From: Caldifarciminota bacterium
GTDB lineage: Bacteria > Hydrothermota > Tepidihabitantia > SM23-42
Direction: 5' to 3'
Assembly: GCA_020353055.1 (NCBI GenBank)
Contig: CP070686.1
Span: 2,060,433-2,119,985 of the forward strand
DNA: 59,553 nucleotides
Position numbers and translations under genes: made by a program. The notes beneath the pieces are model-generated. The model searched no databases. It had not been told where the DNA came from and was given only the letters and a program-made list of their open reading frames with translations. Numbering within the stretch: position 1 is the first letter of the stretch; every line of letters starts with the position of its first letter. Below, piece after piece: positions 7,624-17,245 of the stretch.

Positions 7624-7664
7624 TGTTCTTATTACGAAGAAATGATTGAGTGGAGGCTATAAAA

Positions 7665-8150
7665 ATGTTGGTTAATAGAAAAGCAATAGAGAAATATCTT
7701 AATAAATGGCAGGATATCTTAAGATTAAGAGATTGGGACATAGTGATCAAAATAGTCAAAACCAAATGGAGAAAATCAGGAGATATTAAGATCGATTTGG
7801 AGGATAAGAAAGCAGTCCTTTTGGTGAATCATAAGCCAAAATGCACGAATCTCGAGGAGTTGGTTATTCATGAATTACTCCATCTGAAAGTATACAGAAT
7901 GGATCAAATGCTTGAAAGCTTCCTATCCATTATCTTTGGTGAAAAAGAGGATGACCCAAAGCGTGAGTTCGCTTATACGCAATTCATGATGGTTTTGGAG
8001 TCTACTGTTGAAGACCTAACAAAAGGTTATCTTTCAGCCGAAGGAAGTCAGAAATCATTATCCTTTGGTCGGTTAAAAGAGCCTATCGATGTCGAAATTA
8101 GGGGCAATTGCAAATTTGATCACAACATTGACAAAGGAGATAGAAAATGA
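7665..8150 (+). CDS. Putative zinc-binding HELLH protein
   Basis: A 161-residue cytoplasmic protein with no signal peptide. Residues 66-73 carry ELVIHELLHLKVY, an HExxH zinc-protease signature inside a predicted helix, preceded by a strand (AVLLVNHKP). This is the general layout of small SprT/ImmA-like metallopeptidase domains, but I cannot assign a family. Start ATG 7665 has GGAGG seven to eight bases upstream; the GTG at 7650 lies on the Shine-Dalgarno and is unlikely. The stop overlaps the start of the lipoprotein hydrolase (ATGA), so the two are co-translated. The third zinc ligand is not obvious; E and D residues around 95-110 (EKEDDPKRE) are candidates. Confidence 0.6.
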   Translation: MLVNRKAIEKYLNKWQDILRLRDWDIVIKIVKTKWRKSGDIKIDLEDKKAVLLVNHKPKCTNLEELVIHELLHLKVYRMDQMLESFLSIIFGEKEDDPKREFAYTQFMMVLESTVEDLTKGYLSAEGSQKSLSFGRLKEPIDVEIRGNCKFDHNIDKGDRK

Positions 8151-8983
8151 AAAGGAATGTACTTTTGTTGGTTATGCTCGTTTGTTTTTCGGTTTTGTGT
8201 TTGATCTCATGCAAGTATTTTCAAAAAAAGTCATACGAGATATACAAATCCGATAAGATGGTAGACATTGGTACGCATAAATTACGGGTAGTATTGTCGG
8301 ATATCCCAAGTGACTATACCATAGTCTTGGAAGCCGGTGGGGGGATGTATTCAGACGCTTATAAGGGAATACAGGATACGCTTGTTCGCCTGACCGGTAT
8401 GAGGGCGATGAGTTATGATCGCTCGGGTTTCGGGGGAAGCGAACTTGGCCCGGACGACTTCACCGCAATAGATGAAGTAGATGCATTGAAGAAATGCCTG
8501 GAAGTTCTGGGATTCAAGAGCAAATATATTCTGGTGGGGCATTCATATGGAGGATTTCTTGTACAACTCTTCGCTGCGCGATATCCGGAACTTGTCAGTG
8601 GACTCGTTTTGATCGATCCCATGAACGTAAAATTCGTTGATAGATTTGGCCTTGATAACCTCAATGCAATAACACCGTATTTTGAAAATCCAGCTACTAA
8701 TTATGAAAAAGCCGGCAATAGAATGATCGACTTCTTTCCTGAGGCTTTGGATACAATGAGAAGCAAAGAACTGCCAGGGCAAATGCCGGTGTCGTTGATA
8801 ACCGCCGGCAATGCTCCGTTTTCGCAAGTATTATGGCGTGCGTGTCATGAGGAAATGGTTATGAATTCCGAGAAACATAAACTGATACTTGCAGAAGGGA
8901 ACAGCCATGATATCATTGCGGAGAATCCGGAACTGGTCATAAACACGATTCTTGAATTGGTTACGCATCTAAAACAAAAATAA
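8147..8983 (+). CDS. Lipoprotein alpha/beta hydrolase
   Basis: A 278-residue lipid-anchored hydrolase. The N-terminus is a lipoprotein signal peptide with lipobox LISC, so Cys22 is the acylation site. The fold is an alpha/beta hydrolase: SYDRSGFGGSE, nucleophile elbow GHSYGG with Ser133, LVLIDP, and a late GNSHDI that supplies the histidine. The substrate cannot be told from sequence. It overlaps the HELLH gene by four bases and both are served by the promoter at 7596. It probably acts at the periplasmic face of a membrane. Confidence 0.82.
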   Translation: MKRNVLLLVMLVCFSVLCLISCKYFQKKSYEIYKSDKMVDIGTHKLRVVLSDIPSDYTIVLEAGGGMYSDAYKGIQDTLVRLTGMRAMSYDRSGFGGSELGPDDFTAIDEVDALKKCLEVLGFKSKYILVGHSYGGFLVQLFAARYPELVSGLVLIDPMNVKFVDRFGLDNLNAITPYFENPATNYEKAGNRMIDFFPEALDTMRSKELPGQMPVSLITAGNAPFSQVLWRACHEEMVMNSEKHKLILAEGNSHDIIAENPELVINTILELVTHLKQK

Positions 8984-9013: not shown

Positions 9014-9049
9014 GAGATTGCCGTGCTCACTGCGTTCGCTCGCAATGAC
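9014..9049. repeat. REP-like palindromic element, copy 1
   Basis: An imperfect palindrome that runs from GAGATTGCC through GCTCAC and GTTCGCTC to CGCAATGAC. Related copies lie at 9110-9173, 14037-14070 and 58688-58722. Confidence 0.65.
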
Positions 9050-9109
9050 AAGAGGCGAGACGGTCCAGTCCACGGGGACAGGCACCTTACGGAACCAGTC
9101 CCTTTGTGG

Positions 9110-9173
9110 GAGATTGCTTCGCCCCGGTTTATTGAATTAGTTGTGTAGTGCGAAAACCGGGGCTCGCAATGAC
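9110..9173. repeat. REP-like palindromic element, expanded copy
   Basis: It begins GAGATTGCTTCG and ends CTCGCAATGAC like the other copies. Its centre is a longer hairpin: CCCCGGTTT pairs with AAACCGGGG. Confidence 0.6.
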
Positions 9174-9221
9174 GGGCGTTAAGCGTATAGCGTCAAGCGT
9201 GCCGCGTGTGCAAGTCACCCC

Positions 9222-9249
9222 TTGACGAATCCGATTTTTTCATTATAAT
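9222..9249 (+). promoter_or_regulatory. Promoter of the membrane-paralogue operon
   Basis: TTGACG (9222-9227), 16 bp, TATAAT (9244-9249). It is the only clear promoter ahead of the eight-gene operon. Confidence 0.75.
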
Positions 9250-9254
9250 ATCAT

Positions 9255-9279
9255 AGACTAGTTTGCATTACAGACTAGT
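9255..9279 (+). promoter_or_regulatory. Paired AGACTAGT site, candidate operator
   Basis: AGACTAGT occurs at 9255-9262 and again at 9272-9279, a centre-to-centre spacing of 17 bp. Each contains the palindrome ACTAGT. The pair covers the expected transcription start (about 9256), a typical repressor position. Binding by the winged-helix protein encoded at the operon's end is an inference. Confidence 0.5.
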
Positions 9280-9300
9280 ATGTGAATAAGGGGGTTGGTG

Positions 9301-9924
9301 ATGGAACAGAAAATGGACCTGAGGCAGCTGGAACGCAAAGCCTGGACTTCATTCTACGACGATGGCCTGGGCGACATATTTCTGGGATGCATCATACTAA
9401 TGTTCGCTATAGCACCGATGCTCAGTAGAATGGGGTTGGGAGATTTCTGGAGCTCGGCAGTTTTTCTGCCGTTTTTGGCTTTGTTATTCATTGTGATCGT
9501 GCTGCTCAGGAAGCGAGTTGTCAGAACCCGGGTCGGGTTGGTTAGTTTCGGGCGCGCACGCAAGAAGCGTTTGGTGAAGTTCAACGTTTTGATGCTGGTG
9601 GTGTTGTCGGTCGGCTTCATTTTGGGTCTTCTCTCTGTAAGGGGCGGTGTCGCGCAGGCATGGGTACACAATCTTCGTTTCATTGCGATCGTGCTCATGT
9701 GTTTTGGTCTTGCCGGATATTTCTTGGGTTTCATACGATTGTACATTTATGGTATTCTCATTGCTCTTGCTATACCGGTTGGCGAATGGCTCTGGACAAA
9801 TATGGGGGTGCCTCACCACGGTTTCCCAGTAACCTTTGGTGTCACCGCCGGAGTTATTATAATAACTGGTATTGTATTATTCTTGCGTATGCTAAGTAAA
9901 AATCCGAAATCGAAAGGGGAATAG
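9301..9924 (+). CDS. Multipass membrane protein, paralogue family member 1
   Basis: A 207-residue integral membrane protein with about seven hydrophobic segments. It starts with a short cytosolic region, ERKAWTSFYDDGLGDI, that is recognisably shared with the five other membrane proteins of this operon. After the first helix pair comes the family's second marker, here RTRVGLVSFG (elsewhere YPRIGYAK), then further helices and a basic tail after the last helix (FLRMLSKNPKSKG). ATG 9301 is preferred: AAGGGGG lies six bases upstream. First gene of the operon, directly behind the promoter and paired ACTAGT site. Function unknown; no transporter or enzyme motif is visible. Closest sibling is the protein at 10350. 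Confidence 0.85.
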   Translation: MEQKMDLRQLERKAWTSFYDDGLGDIFLGCIILMFAIAPMLSRMGLGDFWSSAVFLPFLALLFIVIVLLRKRVVRTRVGLVSFGRARKKRLVKFNVLMLVVLSVGFILGLLSVRGGVAQAWVHNLRFIAIVLMCFGLAGYFLGFIRLYIYGILIALAIPVGEWLWTNMGVPHHGFPVTFGVTAGVIIITGIVLFLRMLSKNPKSKGE

Positions 9925-9958
9925 CTTGTTATCAAGGACGCAAATTAGGAGGTATTTG

Positions 9959-10357
9959 ATGTTCGTACGTAGGACATGTATATTGATCGTGGTTGTCTTC
10001 TTCGGAGGCGTGGTTTACGCTTCAGAGACAACTAATAAATTACAGGAACTAGACTCCATTGGCATGATGCCAGAAGTTATTGTGACGGCTCCCAGGTATG
10101 AAATTCAGGATGAGGCTTGGTTAGGTATGATTGAGGGTGTTGTCGTTGAAGCGCAACGGCCTTCGATCATGACAGAAGAGAACGTTGCTGGGGCGAACAG
10201 TGGGAAAATTGCGCCGAACAGCGATGGATTTGATTCGATACGCGGCGAAAGTATCATCCGTCTATTGTTGCCGTTGACGCTCACACTTGCGACAATTTCT
10301 ATACTGTATATGTCAATACATGCATATCTTAATGCTGAGGAGGTAAAGCATGAGTGA
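9959..10357 (+). CDS. Small exported protein with VIVTAPR motif and C-terminal membrane anchor
   Basis: A 132-residue protein that differs from its neighbours. A signal peptide or signal anchor covers about residues 1-22 (ends VYAS). Then comes MPEVIVTAPRYE near residue 40 and a second, weaker version, EGVVVEAQRPS, near 60. A low-complexity linker leads to a hydrophobic segment (about 96-120) and a charged end. VVVTAPR-type strings are familiar from the N-termini of TonB-dependent receptors, but no barrel is present here. ATG 9959 has AGGAGG seven bases upstream. The gene ends overlapping the next start by 8 bp. It could be the exported partner of the membrane proteins; that is inference. Confidence 0.75.
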   Translation: MFVRRTCILIVVVFFGGVVYASETTNKLQELDSIGMMPEVIVTAPRYEIQDEAWLGMIEGVVVEAQRPSIMTEENVAGANSGKIAPNSDGFDSIRGESIIRLLLPLTLTLATISILYMSIHAYLNAEEVKHE

Positions 10358-11027
10358 GAATAAAATCGATCTGAAAAAACTTGAACGCAAGGTGTGGACA
10401 TCTTTTTATGAAGATGGCATCTGGGATATTTACCTCGGATTGCTGCTTTCGGCCATCGCGGTTGGTGCGTTCTGTACTGACACCGGAATATCCGAGAAAT
10501 ACTCGATCTTCGGTCACATTGGGATTACAGTATTCGCAGTTCTCTTGCTATGGCTTGGCAAGCATTTCATAACTGTCCCGCGTATCGGAACCGTCGTTTT
10601 CGGCTCCAGAGGCAGGGCACGATTGACGAAAGTACAAGTCCTCCTTGCGATCTCATGCGTATCGGGGTTGGCGGCTTTCTTGCTGATCGCTTCCACCATA
10701 GGAAATGTAACAGCACGGCAGTCGGTTATGGAGTACATCGTTCCTGTATTCTGGACAGTGAATATGCTCGTTCTGTTCAGTCTTGCCGCATATTTCCTGA
10801 ATTATGCTCGTTTGTACATTATCGGATTTTTGTATGCAATTGCAGTGCCGGCTGATAAGATACTGCGACAAATACTACATATCGATTTGAGCGTCGTTGC
10901 CTTTGGCGTGCCCGCGATGATTATTCTGATCATGGGTGTTGTTGTGTTGGTTCGCTTTCTACGCAAGTACTCAATTCCAAGTGATGATTTTCCCAGTAAG
11001 GAGATAAAGGATGTCCGAGACCGTTGA
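10350..11027 (+). CDS. Multipass membrane protein, paralogue family member 2
   Basis: A 225-residue integral membrane protein closely resembling member 1. It has the N-terminal block ERKVWTSFYEDGIWDIYLG, about seven hydrophobic segments, the mid-protein marker VPRIGTVVFGSRGRARL, and a basic tail after the last helix (VRFLRKYSIPSD). Shine-Dalgarno GAGGA sits ahead of ATG 10350. It overlaps the previous gene by 8 bp and the next by 17 bp, so translation is coupled. No catalytic or transport signature is seen. Confidence 0.85.
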   Translation: MSENKIDLKKLERKVWTSFYEDGIWDIYLGLLLSAIAVGAFCTDTGISEKYSIFGHIGITVFAVLLLWLGKHFITVPRIGTVVFGSRGRARLTKVQVLLAISCVSGLAAFLLIASTIGNVTARQSVMEYIVPVFWTVNMLVLFSLAAYFLNYARLYIIGFLYAIAVPADKILRQILHIDLSVVAFGVPAMIILIMGVVVLVRFLRKYSIPSDDFPSKEIKDVRDR

Positions 11028-11622
11028 AATACAGGAAATCAAGCAGAAGGCTTTTAGCGCCATGTCACAGGATGGTTTGGACAAGATTCTCGCTGGCTTT
11101 GTGCTCATGCTTCTCCCGCTTGTCTTGATTGATATGATGCTTTTGGCTTTGCTGGTGATCATGGCCGTTCTGAGTCTGATTTTGAAAGGCGTAATCAGAA
11201 AGAAGTTACTCTATGATCGGATAGGTTATGCGAAATTTCCAATGCGTTCTGATAGAAGAGAGGTACTGTTTACTATTCTGTATATTCTAGTGTTTCTGTC
11301 GCTCTTTTTCGCCGTAGTCATCAGACAACTCAATACCTTCAAGCCGCTTATGATCATCATCGTTCCGGCCGGTGCATTCTTCACGATTACTCACTTTCGC
11401 ACAAAGATCAAAATTGATTATGTTATGTCTTTTGTAATATTTCTCAGCGGAATCATTGGGCTACTGTTTACAATTGCCGGGTACGACCCGAACACGGTTT
11501 CTGTTTGTCAATTTGGTGCAATAGGCGTGGTGTTTCTAATTGTCGGTGTCATTCAATTGAAAACGTTTCTGCGTAGATACCAAAAGGTCGCAAAGGAGGC
11601 AAGAGATGACCGAAACTATTGA
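11011..11622 (+). CDS. Multipass membrane protein, paralogue family member 3
   Basis: A 203-residue membrane protein of the same family. N-terminal block IKQKAFSAMSQDGLDKI, a hydrophobic pair, then DRIGYAKFPMRSDRREV. Two more helix pairs follow, and the tail FLRRYQKVAKEARDD is basic. GGAG precedes ATG 11011. The overlap with each neighbour is 17 bp, the same figure on both sides, which fits tandem duplication of a unit including its junction. Function unknown. Confidence 0.83.
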   Translation: MSETVEIQEIKQKAFSAMSQDGLDKILAGFVLMLLPLVLIDMMLLALLVIMAVLSLILKGVIRKKLLYDRIGYAKFPMRSDRREVLFTILYILVFLSLFFAVVIRQLNTFKPLMIIIVPAGAFFTITHFRTKIKIDYVMSFVIFLSGIIGLLFTIAGYDPNTVSVCQFGAIGVVFLIVGVIQLKTFLRRYQKVAKEARDDRNY

Positions 11623-12205
11623 TGTCAAGCACACAGAGAATGAAGTCCGCAAAGTACTGGGGCAAGATGGTCTGGACTTGATCGTTGGCGGTCTGGCGTT
11701 GGCGCTCATGGCGATATTTTTTGTCAATATTAAGCATGGCTGGGCATATGTCTTTGCCGTTGGACTTCACGCTTCCGTGCTTCCTTATCTGAGGAGAAAG
11801 ATTGTCTATCCGCGGATCGGGTATGCGCAACTGCCGGCAGTGAAAATGACAATTCTGCAGCATTTGCTAACGGTAATCGTTGCAGCCATCGCACTCATTC
11901 TTTTTTATGTATTCGGCAAGGACTCGCGTTTCAACTGGGTGATGCCATTGTATGTGGGTTTCGTACTATCTTTTATTTCCTTTGTGACGGCTTGGAGACA
12001 CAAGTTGCCGACATATTATCTGGTTACGTTCATTTTTGTAATCAGTGGCATAATTGGCATCATTTTAACGCGGGCAGGACATCCGGCCGGTATAGTTACC
12101 GCCGTGCAACTCTGGATTCTATCCGTGATACTGGTTCTGATGGGTGTGGTGCGATTGTTGCTGTTCAAAATGAGATATCCCTTACTTTGCACGACACAGA
12201 ACTGA
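11606..12205 (+). CDS. Multipass membrane protein, paralogue family member 4
   Basis: A 199-residue membrane protein. N-terminal block ENEVRKVLGQDGLDLIVGG, then marker YPRIGYAQLPAVKM, six or so helices, and a tail LLLFKMRYPLL. AAAGGAGG precedes ATG 11606. It overlaps member 3 by 17 bp and is separated from member 5 by 8 bp. Members 3 to 5 form a subgroup in which TM2 is followed directly by the YPRIGYA marker. Function unknown. Confidence 0.83.
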   Translation: MTETIDVKHTENEVRKVLGQDGLDLIVGGLALALMAIFFVNIKHGWAYVFAVGLHASVLPYLRRKIVYPRIGYAQLPAVKMTILQHLLTVIVAAIALILFYVFGKDSRFNWVMPLYVGFVLSFISFVTAWRHKLPTYYLVTFIFVISGIIGIILTRAGHPAGIVTAVQLWILSVILVLMGVVRLLLFKMRYPLLCTTQN

Positions 12206-12213
12206 GGGGCGAT

Positions 12214-12813
12214 ATGAGTGAACAGATAGTCATGGAAGAAATAGAAAAGAAAGCAAGAAGTACTTTGCGACGGGATGGATTGGCAACAATTATTGCAGGA
12301 GTGGCTCTTGCCATCATGGCACCGTTCTTCCTCGATGATAGATTAGGTTGGATGCTTATCCTCGGCAGCGGTCTGTATGTCTTCCTACCAGAAGTTTTGA
12401 GGAGGCATTTCATCTATCCCCGAGTTGGCTATGTGAAGGTAAGGAAGGAAAAAAGTAAGAAATGGAAGTTGATCATTTCAATATTACTACTGTTGATATT
12501 TATTGTCATTCTAAAGATCAATGCGTACAATTGGATACTACCTTTCTATCTCGCTTTGGTACTTGGTGCAATGGCCTTTACGATTGCCTACTTATACAGG
12601 ACCCTCGTAGAATATTTCCTCGCTAGCCTTATACTGGCAAGCGGTATCGTTGGTTTAGTTGTTACAATACAAGGTAATGAGCCAGGACTTGTATCCGCTC
12701 TTCAACTCTGGATACTCGGGGCAGTGCTCGTTCTTGTCGGTATCGTGCGGTTCGTACTATTCATTCGTAAATATCCAGCAACAAAGGAGCATGGTAATGA
12801 AACCATCGGTTGA
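12214..12813 (+). CDS. Multipass membrane protein, paralogue family member 5
   Basis: A 199-residue membrane protein. It has IEKKARSTLRRDGLATIIAG at the N-terminus, YPRVGYVKVRKEKSKKWK after the first helices, several further helices and a tail VLFIRKYPATKEHG. The true start is ATG 12214, with GAGGGG upstream. The frame is open further 5' to 11992, but that part merely overlaps member 4. It overlaps member 6 by 17 bp. Function unknown. Confidence 0.83.
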   Translation: MSEQIVMEEIEKKARSTLRRDGLATIIAGVALAIMAPFFLDDRLGWMLILGSGLYVFLPEVLRRHFIYPRVGYVKVRKEKSKKWKLIISILLLLIFIVILKINAYNWILPFYLALVLGAMAFTIAYLYRTLVEYFLASLILASGIVGLVVTIQGNEPGLVSALQLWILGAVLVLVGIVRFVLFIRKYPATKEHGNETIG

Positions 12814-13402
12814 TCTGGGAGAGATCAAGCGCAAAACGCGATACATGAATTTTCAGGATGGCCTTATGGATATTGTGCTGGGTGTTCATCTTGTGCTCAC
12901 ATATTATGTGATAGAATACCGGCTACTGCTCAACATACCGTGGATCGTGATCGGTCCCTTGATCGTCGAGGCAATCAGAAAACGCACGACTTATCCGCGT
13001 ATTGGCTATGCACGTGTGGCCAATCGGGGAGCAACTGCCCTAAGAATACTATTAGTATGCGTAGCAGGAATTGTACTTCTTTTTGCGGTAACAGCTTTGA
13101 TTTTTCTATTGCTTGGCCTACCAGTACAGAATAATTGGCATCATGTCCTCAAACTAGCCGCAGTGCTGCTCATTCCGGTGATTTTCGGCTTGCTTGCACA
13201 TGAGCATAGGGTCTACAGATGGTTTGTTTATGGGGTGTTGATCGGTCTGGGTGGGTTATTTGTCAGAGCGATAGCGCCAAATAGCCTTCAGTTCTATTTT
13301 GCCATTCTTGGTGGTGTTGTTTCGGTAATCGGCATCGCGATATTCCTTGATTTCTTAAATAAACATCCGCGGCAGCCTGAGGAGGGCTCGGATGGTGCCT
13401 AA
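12797..13402 (+). CDS. Multipass membrane protein, paralogue family member 6
   Basis: A 201-residue membrane protein. N-terminal block IKRKTRYMNFQDGLMDIVLG, marker YPRIGYARVANRGATAL, long hydrophobic segments, tail FLDFLNKHPRQPEEG. AAAGGAG seven bases upstream decides for ATG 12797 over ATG 12791. The frame extends upstream to 12659 only as overlap. The gene overlaps member 5 by 17 bp and the regulator by 11 bp. Function unknown. Confidence 0.83.
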   Translation: MKPSVDLGEIKRKTRYMNFQDGLMDIVLGVHLVLTYYVIEYRLLLNIPWIVIGPLIVEAIRKRTTYPRIGYARVANRGATALRILLVCVAGIVLLFAVTALIFLLLGLPVQNNWHHVLKLAAVLLIPVIFGLLAHEHRVYRWFVYGVLIGLGGLFVRAIAPNSLQFYFAILGGVVSVIGIAIFLDFLNKHPRQPEEGSDGA

Positions 13403-13721
13403 GAAGAAAGAAGCGCACGAACTGCAGAAAATCGTTGACATCGACCGGGTTGTCCATGAACCTGCAAGGCTTCTGATCCTTTCGTATCTGTACGTGGTCG
13501 AGAGCGCTGATTTCCTCTTTCTGCTCAGACAGACAAACCTGACCAAGGGTAATCTCTCTTCTCATCTGATGAAATTGGAGAAAGCAGGATATGTGAATAT
13601 TGAGAAGAAATTCGTTGAGAAGATCCCGCGCACATTACTCAGTTTAACAAAAGAAGGAAGAAAAGCGTTCCATGAGTATACCAAGCGGATGAAGAAGATA
13701 TTCATGGAACTACCGGGGTAA
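13392..13721 (+). CDS. Winged-helix transcriptional regulator (HTH_34-like)
   Basis: A 109-residue DNA-binding protein. The sequence DIDRVVHEPARLLILSYL opens the domain. The recognition helix region is TKGNLSSHLMKLEKAGYV, the wing EKIPRTLLSLTKEGRKAF, and a short C-terminal helix follows. This matches the small stand-alone MarR/ArsR-related group known as HTH_34. It has no ligand domain. It is the last gene of the membrane-protein operon and overlaps member 6 by 11 bp, so it is made together with them and most likely regulates this same operon. The paired ACTAGT site at 9255-9279 is the obvious candidate target. Confidence 0.85.
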   Translation: MVPKKKEAHELQKIVDIDRVVHEPARLLILSYLYVVESADFLFLLRQTNLTKGNLSSHLMKLEKAGYVNIEKKFVEKIPRTLLSLTKEGRKAFHEYTKRMKKIFMELPG

Positions 13722-13889: not shown

Positions 13890-14036
13890 AAGCATCACAG
13901 TGCTGTCATTTCTGTATAATAGCAATCAATGAGGGTAGATATCTCATAAAATTACTGCGTTTAGGGTGAGAAAAATCAATGATGGGGGGAGTGTTGGGTT
14001 CCCCGGCTAAAGCGGGGAAAGACGCTGCTTCGTAGT

Positions 14037-14070
14037 GAGATTGCCGCGTCGCTTCGCTCCTCGCAATGAC
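14037..14070. repeat. REP-like palindromic element, copy 3
   Basis: Starts GAGATTGCCGCG and ends CTCGCAATGAC, with a GCGTCGCTTCGC core. Same family as 9014-9049. Confidence 0.65.
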
Positions 14071-14099
14071 GGCGGTGGGGTGGATGAGGATGGGTAAAA

Positions 14100-14151
14100 C
14101 CCGCATCCTGCCTACCCACAAATAGGGTGGGAGTTGACAGCAGGATGCGGG
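14100..14151. terminator. Bidirectional terminator between convergent operons
   Basis: CCCGCATCCTGC (14100-14111) pairs perfectly with GCAGGATGCGGG (14140-14151), enclosing a smaller CTACCCA/TGGG hairpin. GTTTTCC follows on the plus side and TTTTA on the minus side. It separates the membrane-paralogue operon from the efflux operon. Confidence 0.7.
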
Positions 14152-14164
14152 ATGTTTTCCTATA

Positions 14165-17100
14165 CTATTTTGATTTCGGCAGATCCACTTCGCAGGCTTT
14201 GTCCTTTTTCCGCTCGAAGAGTGTGTAAAGCACCGGGATGAAGACGAGGGTCAAGAAGGTGGCGACCATCAAACCGCCGATGACCGAACGTGCCATGGGA
14301 GCACGGAGCTCATTCCCGGCACCGATTCCCAGCGCCATGGGTATCAGGCCAAAACTCGTGGTGAATGCCGTCATCAGAATCGGACGCATACGGACTCTGC
14401 CTGCCTCAATTACGGCATCCATGCACTTGAGGCCTTCTTGCCGGCGCAATTGGTTGGCATAGGTAATATAAACGATCGCATTATTGACAACGATGCCACC
14501 GAGGAGCAGAACGCCGAGGAGACTCTGCATGTTGAGAGTTGTCCCGGTGAAGAATAACATCCAAAGAACACCAATGAGTGCAAGCGGGATGGTGAACATG
14601 ATGATGAACGGTTCGCGGAAGGACTCAAACTGACCGACCATGATCATGTATACGAGGACAATTGCCAGAAGGATCACCATCAAGAGATCCCTGAAGGTAT
14701 TAACCTGTTCCTCATAACCACCGGATAGCTCAATTGTGAAATCGGCCGGTCTCGGAATGGTATTCAGGATTTTCTGGACATCACGCGCCACGCTGCCCTG
14801 GTCACGTCCTTCGATGTTGCCGCTGACCGTCACGAGCCGGTAGTTGTCCTCGTGCTCGATCTTGACCGGCCCTACACCAATCGTGTCTTTGACAAAATTA
14901 ACGATTGGCACCTCTCCCATTGGTGTCGTGATCGTCATTGTGCTAATCTTCTTTATGTCATCGTGGTGTTCTTTATCGAACATCACTTTTATATTGTACT
15001 CATTGCCTTTTCTTCGGTATTGACTTGCCACGATGCCTTCGACGCGCGACCGCAAAACCTGGCCTATTTGATAAGGTGTCAGGCCGAAATTAGCTGCTTT
15101 CTGGCGGTCGATGATCAGACGCAATTCAGGTTTTCCTTCAGCAATGCTTGTTTCGAGGTCGACGAGTCCTTTTACGCTCCGAAGCGTGTCCATCAGGAGG
15201 TCAGATAGTTCCTTTGCCTTCTGGAAATCGTATCCGAGGATCTTTATGGCGATCGGTTTACCGCCGCCGAACATTGAAAATTGCTGGGTGGCGTATTTTA
15301 CCTTGAGTCCGGGGATACCGGTCATTTTAGGCCGTAGATCACGCTGGATCTCTTTGACCGAACGATTGCGCTGCTCGCGGTATACGAGTTCGAGATATAT
15401 CTCAGCTGAGTGCGGTCCGGTCGTAGCGGCAAAGAGACTCGAGAATCCACCCTCACCGCTACCGATCGAAGTTGAGAGTATATCAATCTCGGGGACTTCT
15501 TCGAGGATGATCTTTTCGAGCTGTCTTACCGCAGAATCGGTGACCCAGAGGTTGGTGCCGACCGGCATTTCAGCTTCGATGATGATCTCGCCTTGGTCAA
15601 CGGCGGGACTCAATTCAGTACCGATGAACGGTATCAACATCAAACTGATGACGAATACGGCAACAGTACCGAGAATAACGATCAACCGGTGATTGAGCGC
15701 CCAACTGATGAGCCGACTATAGGTGTCTTCCAGTTTTCTGTAAAAATTGTTAAGCCCTTCACCGAACCCGCTGCGTTTTACTTTCCCGAACCTAACCGAC
15801 AGCATGGGGATAATGGTCAAAGCGACAACAAGCGATGAGATTAGCGCAAAGGTAACGGTCAGAGCAAGCGGTTGGAAGAAAATCGATGCGAAACCTCTCA
15901 CCAGTAGCAAGGGTAAGAATACGGCAACGGTTGTCAGTGTGGAGGCAGTAATTGCTATACCCACTTCTTTTGCACCGGTGCTCGCTGCCTTTGCCGCGTC
16001 CTCGCCTTTCTCCTTGTGTCGGAATATGGCTTCGAACACAACGATCGCAGAATCCAGCACCATACCGATGGCGATCGTTAAACCGCCGAGTGAAATGATG
16101 TTGAGACTCATGTTGAAGAGGTACATGAAGAAGAGTGCGAAGAATACGGCAATTGGTATCGCAACTGCCATGTACAGAGTTGATCGGAAACTACCCAGGA
16201 ACAAGAATAGAACGATGACCGCAAGGATCGCGCCCATTATCAGAGTCTGCGCAGTACTGGTCACGGATCTGGTGATGTAGTCTGCCTGGTTGAACATGAT
16301 ATCGATCTTGATGCCCGGCGGAAGGTCTTTCTTAATATTTTCCAGTTCCTTTGCGAGTGCAGTGCCGACATTGACCGAGTTTGCATCGGTTCTCTTCTGC
16401 GCAATGCCCCATATTGACTGAACACCATTTGTACGTGAGATTGATGTTATCTCCGAGGCTTGCTCGCGTACTTCCGCGACCTGGGACAGTAGTATGGGTA
16501 CACCGTTGTTGCTGCCGACGACTGTCTTCTCGATCTCGGCGAGATTCGTGTACTCCCCGATCGTGCGTACAATATAGACTTTTCTGCCGGATTCAACATT
16601 GCCGAGTGGAAAGTTGATATTCTGTGCCTGTAGTATTTGCTGCACCTGATCAGAGGTTATGCCGGTACCCTGCAGTTTAACCGGATCAAGTATTACCTGG
16701 ATTTCTGTCATCGTACCGCTCATGGCATAAGAGGCAGCGACGCCGCCAACGCGCTGCAGACGTTCGGCTATGTCATCGGCGATCTGATCCAATTCGAGGG
16801 GGTCGATATCACCGGAGATGTTGTACATCATGACCGGCTGCGTGGAGATGTCAAATTTGAAGATCATTGGATAGTCTGCGTCCTCAGGTAGGTAGGGTAG
16901 GATGAATCCCATCCGGTCCCGGACATCGTTTGAAGCCGCATCGAGGTCAGTGCCCCATTCGAATTCGAGAAGTATGTTGGATATATTTTCCGAAGTTGTT
17001 GAAGTCACTTTCTTTATGTTATTGACCGTGCCGAGAGTCTGCTCGAGAGGCTCGGTTATCTGTGTCTCGATCTCTTCGGGCCCGGCTCCCGGATATGTGG

Positions 17101-17245
17101 TGAGCACGATCATCATCGGAAAAGTAACATTCGGAAAGAGATCGACAGGCAAATTTGTGACCGAGATAAAACCAAACAGAATCACGGCCAAAAAGACCAT
17201 GGAAACCGACAACGGTCTTTTTATGGAAACGTCGGTCAGATTCAT
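14165..17245 (-). CDS. RND efflux transporter, AcrB/HAE1 type
   Basis: A 1026-residue inner-membrane pump of standard RND length, with twelve helices and two large periplasmic loops. The start MNLTDVSIKRPLSVSMVF is typical of the family. In TM4 the proton-relay motif reads GMVLDSAIVVFEAI: the first aspartate is kept while the second, as in AcrB VDDAIVV, is serine. The C-terminal half shows LLGVLLLGGIVVNNAIVYI and RMRPILMTA, both characteristic. It overlaps the adaptor gene by 4 bp and ends the tetR-led operon. It likely exports drugs, bile-type amphiphiles or envelope compounds; the substrate cannot be read. Confidence 0.95.
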   Translation of the reverse strand: MNLTDVSIKRPLSVSMVFLAVILFGFISVTNLPVDLFPNVTFPMMIVLTTYPGAGPEEIETQITEPLEQTLGTVNNIKKVTSTTSENISNILLEFEWGTDLDAASNDVRDRMGFILPYLPEDADYPMIFKFDISTQPVMMYNISGDIDPLELDQIADDIAERLQRVGGVAASYAMSGTMTEIQVILDPVKLQGTGITSDQVQQILQAQNINFPLGNVESGRKVYIVRTIGEYTNLAEIEKTVVGSNNGVPILLSQVAEVREQASEITSISRTNGVQSIWGIAQKRTDANSVNVGTALAKELENIKKDLPPGIKIDIMFNQADYITRSVTSTAQTLIMGAILAVIVLFLFLGSFRSTLYMAVAIPIAVFFALFFMYLFNMSLNIISLGGLTIAIGMVLDSAIVVFEAIFRHKEKGEDAAKAASTGAKEVGIAITASTLTTVAVFLPLLLVRGFASIFFQPLALTVTFALISSLVVALTIIPMLSVRFGKVKRSGFGEGLNNFYRKLEDTYSRLISWALNHRLIVILGTVAVFVISLMLIPFIGTELSPAVDQGEIIIEAEMPVGTNLWVTDSAVRQLEKIILEEVPEIDILSTSIGSGEGGFSSLFAATTGPHSAEIYLELVYREQRNRSVKEIQRDLRPKMTGIPGLKVKYATQQFSMFGGGKPIAIKILGYDFQKAKELSDLLMDTLRSVKGLVDLETSIAEGKPELRLIIDRQKAANFGLTPYQIGQVLRSRVEGIVASQYRRKGNEYNIKVMFDKEHHDDIKKISTMTITTPMGEVPIVNFVKDTIGVGPVKIEHEDNYRLVTVSGNIEGRDQGSVARDVQKILNTIPRPADFTIELSGGYEEQVNTFRDLLMVILLAIVLVYMIMVGQFESFREPFIIMFTIPLALIGVLWMLFFTGTTLNMQSLLGVLLLGGIVVNNAIVYITYANQLRRQEGLKCMDAVIEAGRVRMRPILMTAFTTSFGLIPMALGIGAGNELRAPMARSVIGGLMVATFLTLVFIPVLYTLFERKKDKACEVDLPKSK

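Follow-up and report, generated by a model that had tools for sequence, protein, structure and literature searches.

We describe an operon of eight open reading frames, arranged head to tail on the + strand (9301-13721) of a window of 59,553 nucleotides from the 2.69-Mb contig CP070686.1 (by "the window" we mean the whole of this stretch). Its host, to judge from the closest named relatives, is a member of candidate division WOR-3. The operon encodes six membrane proteins, one exported protein and one regulator. It is an enlarged form of a two-part module that had no name before, in which a membrane protein is paired with a winged-helix regulator of the HTH_34 family. On balance, this module is probably a self-regulating dyad reporting on the membrane, composed of a six-helix membrane-protein family and an HTH_34 repressor acting on an operator of its own. 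The constant pairing of the two genes, their overlap, the position of the operator, and the covariation between the operator and the recognition helix of the regulator support this reading.

The regulator matched the HTH_34 profile (PF13601) with 100.5 bits for a cut-off of 27, in agreement with an earlier reading of this DNA (hereafter the original prediction), which had placed an HTH_34-like regulator at the end of the operon. Its score against PadR (PF03551), 21.4 bits, is under the cut-off of 27. By sequence, the closest solved structure is PH1061 of Pyrococcus horikoshii (PDB 1ub9, E 3e-12), an HTH_34 protein like the window's regulator and one for which no function is reported in the papers searched; a literature search for HTH_34, PF13601 and PH1061 returned no paper on function and no mention of HTH_34 or PF13601.

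To avoid circularity, 84,980 named species genomes were searched with the regulator alone. The 80 loci analyzed are those of the closest 80 among 559 regulator relatives, so that HTH_34 at large lies outside the survey. They comprise 57 bacterial and 21 archaeal records from about 20 named phyla. A protein of the membrane family adjoins the regulator in 77 of the 80 loci when a profile built from WOR-3 sequences only is used, and in 76 when the profile is made from the window's own six copies. The three loci that lack it have a contig end 28, 72 and 195 bases away from the regulator. The two genes usually overlap or nearly touch, and their order is reversed in one locus out of 80. A single membrane copy is present in 42 loci and two to five copies in 35, multi-copy loci being found in Lokiarchaeota (three copies), Planctomycetota (three to four), Latescibacterota (four) and others. 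The other genes at these loci vary: a constant third partner, sought among the operon neighbours, yielded only scattered ABC transporters and S41 peptidases (3/41 each), and the regulator alone is constant. The membrane family occurs in 24 of the 147 genomes of the WOR-3 phylum, most of its loci there ending in the HTH_34 regulator after either a single copy or three to six copies; the module was also found in 32 of the 119 genomes of the Lokiarchaeota phylum. The survey strongly bears out the repeated linkage to HTH_34 and the multi-copy layouts that the original prediction expected in other genomes, and neither of the outcomes it had named as contrary, membership of a characterised transporter family or an arrangement unique to the host genome, occurred.

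Between the promoter and the first gene lies an inverted repeat with the core TTTG-N5-CAAA. The original prediction had noted a paired site there, which we identify as an operator conserved across loci; relatives of the window operon keep it at the same position. The core was found in 46 of 73 testable upstream regions of 130 nucleotides, where its density in the same DNA would predict about 0.9; spacers of 0-4 and 6-12 nucleotides gave 0 or 1 match each. A relaxed form of the operator reaches 54 loci. In several others (L105, L107 and L116) the site precedes an extra upstream gene. Among bacterial loci with a good -35 box, the centre of the operator is mostly 42-48 nucleotides after TTGACA. 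This places it at the start of transcription, a repressor position from which a bound dimer would prevent initiation. As in autoregulatory operons, the site overlaps or follows its operon's promoter. In the host genome, the 23-base-pair form with up to three mismatches occurs at the window operon and at one other place, with three mismatches, which is no more than a control pattern yields. When the whole genome was scanned with the loose core alone, the control pattern was about as frequent, so that no regulon count could be derived.

Loci differ in the base that flanks the core, which is either G or C, and of all columns of the regulator, residue 52 has the highest mutual information with this base. 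Lys or Arg at this position goes with G in 34 of 35 loci, and Trp, Ala, Phe, Pro, His, Ser or Gly goes with C in 20 of 20, so that the rule holds in 54 of 55 loci overall. Asymmetric C/G operators accompany His or Trp. One genome (G155, record L089) has two modules, one combining K52 with GTTTG...CAAAC and the other W52 with CTTTG...CAAAG. The structure model has the recognition helix begin with residue 52. About ten switches of operator and residue are counted on the best tree, three of them on well-supported branches. We take this as strong, if not formal, evidence that regulators of the window type bind the TTTG-N5-CAAA operator.

Some loci around this survey deserve mention in their own right. 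A contig labelled as a Thermoplasmatales archaeon (L067, LSSI01000054) carries a WOR-3-like module with the same operator and a regulator 82% identical, likely a binning error or a recent transfer. Elsewhere, a related HTH_34 protein stands beside a different membrane protein of 198 residues without Pfam family match (L174:2051-2931, + strand; L092:1374-2286, - strand), and the L174 pair follows a site whose core is that of the operator (TTTACTTTGTAAAACAAAGTACT). Several membrane families may have HTH_34 partners.

The features of the window operon are as follows.

9222..9249, + strand: sigma-70-type promoter TTGACG-16-TATAAT; -35 and -10 boxes kept in relatives
9257..9279, + strand: putative operator ACTAGTTTGcattaCAGACTAGT, inverted repeat with one mismatch, just 3' of the -10 box
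9301..9924, + strand: membrane protein copy 1; six transmembrane helices and an N-terminal amphipathic helix; AlphaFold2 (AF2) model, predicted local distance difference test (pLDDT) 93.9
9959..10357, + strand: exported VIVTAPR-peptide protein, hydrophobic at both ends; alternative TTG start at 9926
10350..11027, + strand: membrane protein copy 2; full-length alignment with the other copies
11011..11622, + strand: membrane protein copy 3; overlaps copy 2 by 17 base pairs
11606..12205, + strand: membrane protein copy 4; overlaps copy 3 by 17 base pairs
12214..12813, + strand: membrane protein copy 5; full-length alignment with the other copies
12797..13402, + strand: membrane protein copy 6; overlaps copy 5 by 17 base pairs
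13392..13721, + strand: HTH_34 winged-helix regulator, 109 residues; recognition helix begins at Lys52

Several traits of this layout had been proposed beforehand, and the coordinates agree with them. The single promoter with its paired site corresponds to the sigma-70-type promoter and to the operator just behind it, both conserved in relatives, and the whole operon is probably transcribed as one mRNA. The identical 17-base-pair overlap announced at three junctions is found at 11011-11027, 11606-11622 and 12797-12813; in each, the ATG is packed with the stop of the preceding frame, behind a Shine-Dalgarno-like stretch. Copy 6 and the regulator overlap by 11 base pairs, and copies 4 and 5 are separated by an 8-base-pair gap.

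The six membrane proteins (199-225 residues each) align end to end, and a profile built from any five recovers the sixth at E 3e-21 to 1e-40, while shuffled sequences matched in 0 of 200 trials. This establishes the six paralogous multipass proteins of the original prediction. Within the host genome the family is confined to the window locus. Identity of the other copies to copy 1 is 16-32%, and the invariant columns are a DG..I..G block, R.G after the second transmembrane helix, and one G in the sixth. The YPRIGYA marker attributed to all six holds for copies 3-6, but copy 1 has TRVGLV and copy 2 VPRIGTV at this place. No usable family was obtained for these proteins from Pfam, NCBIfam, PHROGs, PADLOC or PDB sequence searches, and a plasmid search with copy 1 as query gave no match. 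The PADLOC anti-phage defence profiles matched neither the membrane nor the exported proteins, the regulator giving weak Csa3-like matches only. The original prediction had seen no known transporter, enzyme or toxin motif, and no characterised transporter family turned up in the profile and PDB searches.

A structure model was computed from an alignment of 102 members of the family (copy 1: pLDDT 93.9, predicted TM-score 0.88). Its N-terminus is an amphipathic helix (7-21), which is followed by six long helices (approximately 23-43, 55-78, 85-112, 119-142, 145-168 and 172-200). By the positive-inside rule, the N-terminus, the loops after the second and fourth transmembrane helices, and the C-terminal tail are cytoplasmic. 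Most conserved residues lie on this side (D21, G22, R77, G79, R146, F197 and P202), the others being glycines of the first and sixth transmembrane helices (G29 and G190). This distribution argues for a conserved cytoplasmic docking surface below a freely varying membrane part. No conserved polar residue was found inside the transmembrane helices among the 102 members, which speaks against any conserved site for transport or catalysis. Foldseek returned only weak matches to helical bundles or CDF-like proteins, with CDF/ZnT zinc transporters ranked best at E 0.14; VIA gave Z scores up to 7.7 against CDF, at a TM-score of about 0.3, and its top rows tie with unrelated helical proteins.

In the WOR-3 relatives, copies 1 to 6 each form a clade of their own, mostly well supported. 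Together with their low identity, this indicates that the duplications are ancient and predate the split of the family; the six-copy set would then have been retained or lost piecemeal in the relatives. Recent serial duplication is ruled out by the orthologues of each copy found across the family. Of the serial tandem duplication initially inferred from the junctions, the three like overlaps stand, but the event is old and the copies have diverged to 16-32% identity with copy 1. Long retention suggests that the distinct copies are non-redundant subunits, which, in WOR-3, probably form a mixed complex with the exported protein. A hetero-oligomer, and a sensor read by the regulator, both put forward in the original prediction, would fit this retention and the conserved cytoplasmic face. 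Since the single-copy form is the commonest, a hetero-oligomer cannot be a basic requirement of the module.

The exported protein predicted after the first copy was confirmed. It has 132-143 residues, a hydrophobic N-terminus, the VIVTAPR peptide and a C-terminal transmembrane helix, and five related loci have such a protein at the same place, behind copy 1. The VTAPR family is otherwise dispersed, being present in 18 of the 23 genomes of the host's taxonomic family, and its repeat resembles [ML]PEV[VI]VTAPRYEYED.AWSG. Elsewhere in the host genome, proteins with this repeat of about 21 residues are encoded at C1:2626236, 1606767 and 1918017 of genome G000 (L181, L194 and L193). One host member shares an operon with an ECF sigma factor, a zf-HC2 anti-sigma and a protein of six transmembrane helices, as is also the case in L195 and L196. 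Such operons, which rely on a sigma/anti-sigma pair where the window operon has a winged-helix repressor, suggest a shared context of envelope signalling. This ties the peptides to such signalling and weakly supports an envelope signal here; the VTAPR proteins are possibly a lineage-specific family of envelope-stress signal peptides.

From these elements the following mechanism can be proposed. The HTH_34 protein would very probably bind the operator as a dimer, residue 52 reading the base beside the core, and, once bound, would very probably exclude RNA polymerase, the operon thereby repressing itself. The cytoplasmic face of the membrane proteins (N-terminal amphipathic helix with QDGL.DI..G, PR.G loop, R146 and FLR.YP tail) may bind or release the regulator, depending on the state of the membrane or envelope. 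Such a signal would change the availability of the repressor, and more membrane protein would be made. In WOR-3, the dyad would have expanded early into distinct copies accompanied by the exported VTAPR protein.

Several observations weigh against this scheme. Five loci of the WOR-3 phylum (L045, L046, L050, L051 and L053) are without an adjacent HTH_34 regulator; their membrane copies may be orphans or under another regulator. In one Lokiarchaeota genome (G161, L170:2349-6361), the operator precedes an operon for a CPBP protease-like protein and an ABC-2 transporter, some 1.5 Mb from the membrane-protein genes, which have no site before them, so that autoregulation is not universal. The output in some Lokiarchaeota seems to be this transporter operon, which in another genome (G160, L171) follows the operator beside the membrane array. 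The independent-pairs test of the operator/residue association, with three well-supported switches, is underpowered, all three being in agreement. Finally, the membrane proteins may be effectors instead of sensors.

This last point corresponds to the main rival, a classical repressor-effector operon, in which the helix-turn-helix (HTH) protein senses a small molecule or a redox change, and the membrane proteins are produced on demand as small permeases, channels or membrane-stabilising proteins, with no signalling from membrane to repressor. The dyad reading differs from it in whether the membrane protein alters repression. An operator at a repressor position suits such an operon, similar autoregulated operons of a repressor and a membrane protein are known, e.g. 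those of PadR-type repressors in Listeria (PMC6624303), and several diverged copies would suit effectors with different substrates. The operator before an ABC-2 transporter in Lokiarchaeota and the weak resemblance of the model to six-helix CDF zinc transporters (Z 7.7, Foldseek E 0.14) point the same way. Yet a transporter family devoid of any conserved polar or charged transmembrane residue would be unusual, the residues of the CDF metal site are absent, the 109-residue HTH protein carries no additional ligand domain, the conserved surface is cytoplasmic, and the partner genes differ between loci while the regulator alone is constant. We regard this explanation as unlikely, if worth keeping in view.

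The membrane proteins could also be a mere sink titrating the repressor, the system gauging their own amount or the membrane area in response to no external signal. Overlapping genes in near-fixed order favour stoichiometric co-synthesis, and the module's own operator is the only close match in the host genome, both in keeping with sequestration; the exported VTAPR protein and the long maintenance of six distinct copies are left unexplained, and we find this version improbable. That no functional link exists at all, neighbourhood and operator being simply inherited by descent or by transfer of a selfish cassette, would agree with the patchy distribution in both the WOR-3 (24/147) and Lokiarchaeota (32/119) phyla. 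However, the pairing persists in Bacteria and Archaea at very low identity of the membrane protein though other neighbours change, operator and recognition helix change together, and no mobility genes were seen, which makes this explanation hardly credible.

Among known systems, the closest in layout is the HAAS-PadR-like winged-helix dyad, an operon-borne pair of a membrane protein and a stand-alone small winged-helix regulator that has been put forward as a substitute for two-component systems under membrane stress (PMC11237479). The adjacency of a membrane protein and a stand-alone regulator in 77 of 80 loci recalls this arrangement, a likeness that is not proof of membership. None of the 102 members of the window family contains a HAAS domain (DUF1700, DUF1129 or DUF1048) at E <= 0.01; HAAS is a three-helix domain whose kinked third helix bears a GxP motif, whereas the N-terminal cytoplasmic part of the window family has about 21 residues; and the regulator, an HTH_34 protein, scores too low for PadR. 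Unlike HAAS-PadR, the window module is present in many archaea and candidate phyla. Judging from sequence, it would work like the HAAS-PadR dyad, and we do not file it there because its membrane family is not HAAS and its regulator is below the PadR cut-off. The Listeria LltR-lmo0600-lmo0601 operon, experimentally described and autoregulated as are other PadR autorepressor operons (PMC6624303), likewise has a repressor gene together with genes for a multi-span membrane protein and for an exported one, but its membrane family (DUF1700) is unrelated, its regulator belongs to another family, and its single membrane gene follows the regulator. As for the CDF/ZnT transporters, they share six transmembrane helices with the window family, but have a conserved Asp/His metal site without counterpart in the 102 members, and no sequence similarity to them.

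Outside the operon, non-coding stretches at 9015-9200 and 13985-14100 bracket it and have in common CTCGCAATGAC (at 9039, 9163 and 14060). Elsewhere in the window only one mismatched copy is found, and this may be a dispersed repeat element. On the - strand, 14165-17245 encodes a large inner-membrane protein of 1026 residues, converging on the operon, that reads like an RND efflux pump. Upstream, on the + strand, a 166-residue protein (7650-8150) with a HELLH metalloprotease-like motif, without Pfam match above cut-off, precedes an exported alpha/beta hydrolase (8147-8983).

This work defines an uncatalogued membrane-protein family together with its constant partner, operator and specificity residue. 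The native hosts found are mostly uncultured. In its fullest form, which we advance only tentatively, the proposal is that of a phosphorylation-free membrane-to-DNA signalling dyad shared by Bacteria and Archaea, Asgard included. An HTH_34 repressor would be under the direct control of a six-helix membrane family not defined until now, operator and reading residue having changed together across both domains. In WOR-3 the dyad would have become a hetero-oligomeric array of sensors, with the exported VTAPR protein as its ligand or one of its subunits. The dyad may be a widespread, overlooked route by which membrane state is reported to genes. If it is common to Bacteria and Archaea, it would be a simple membrane-signalling route beside two-component systems and HAAS-PadR pairs.

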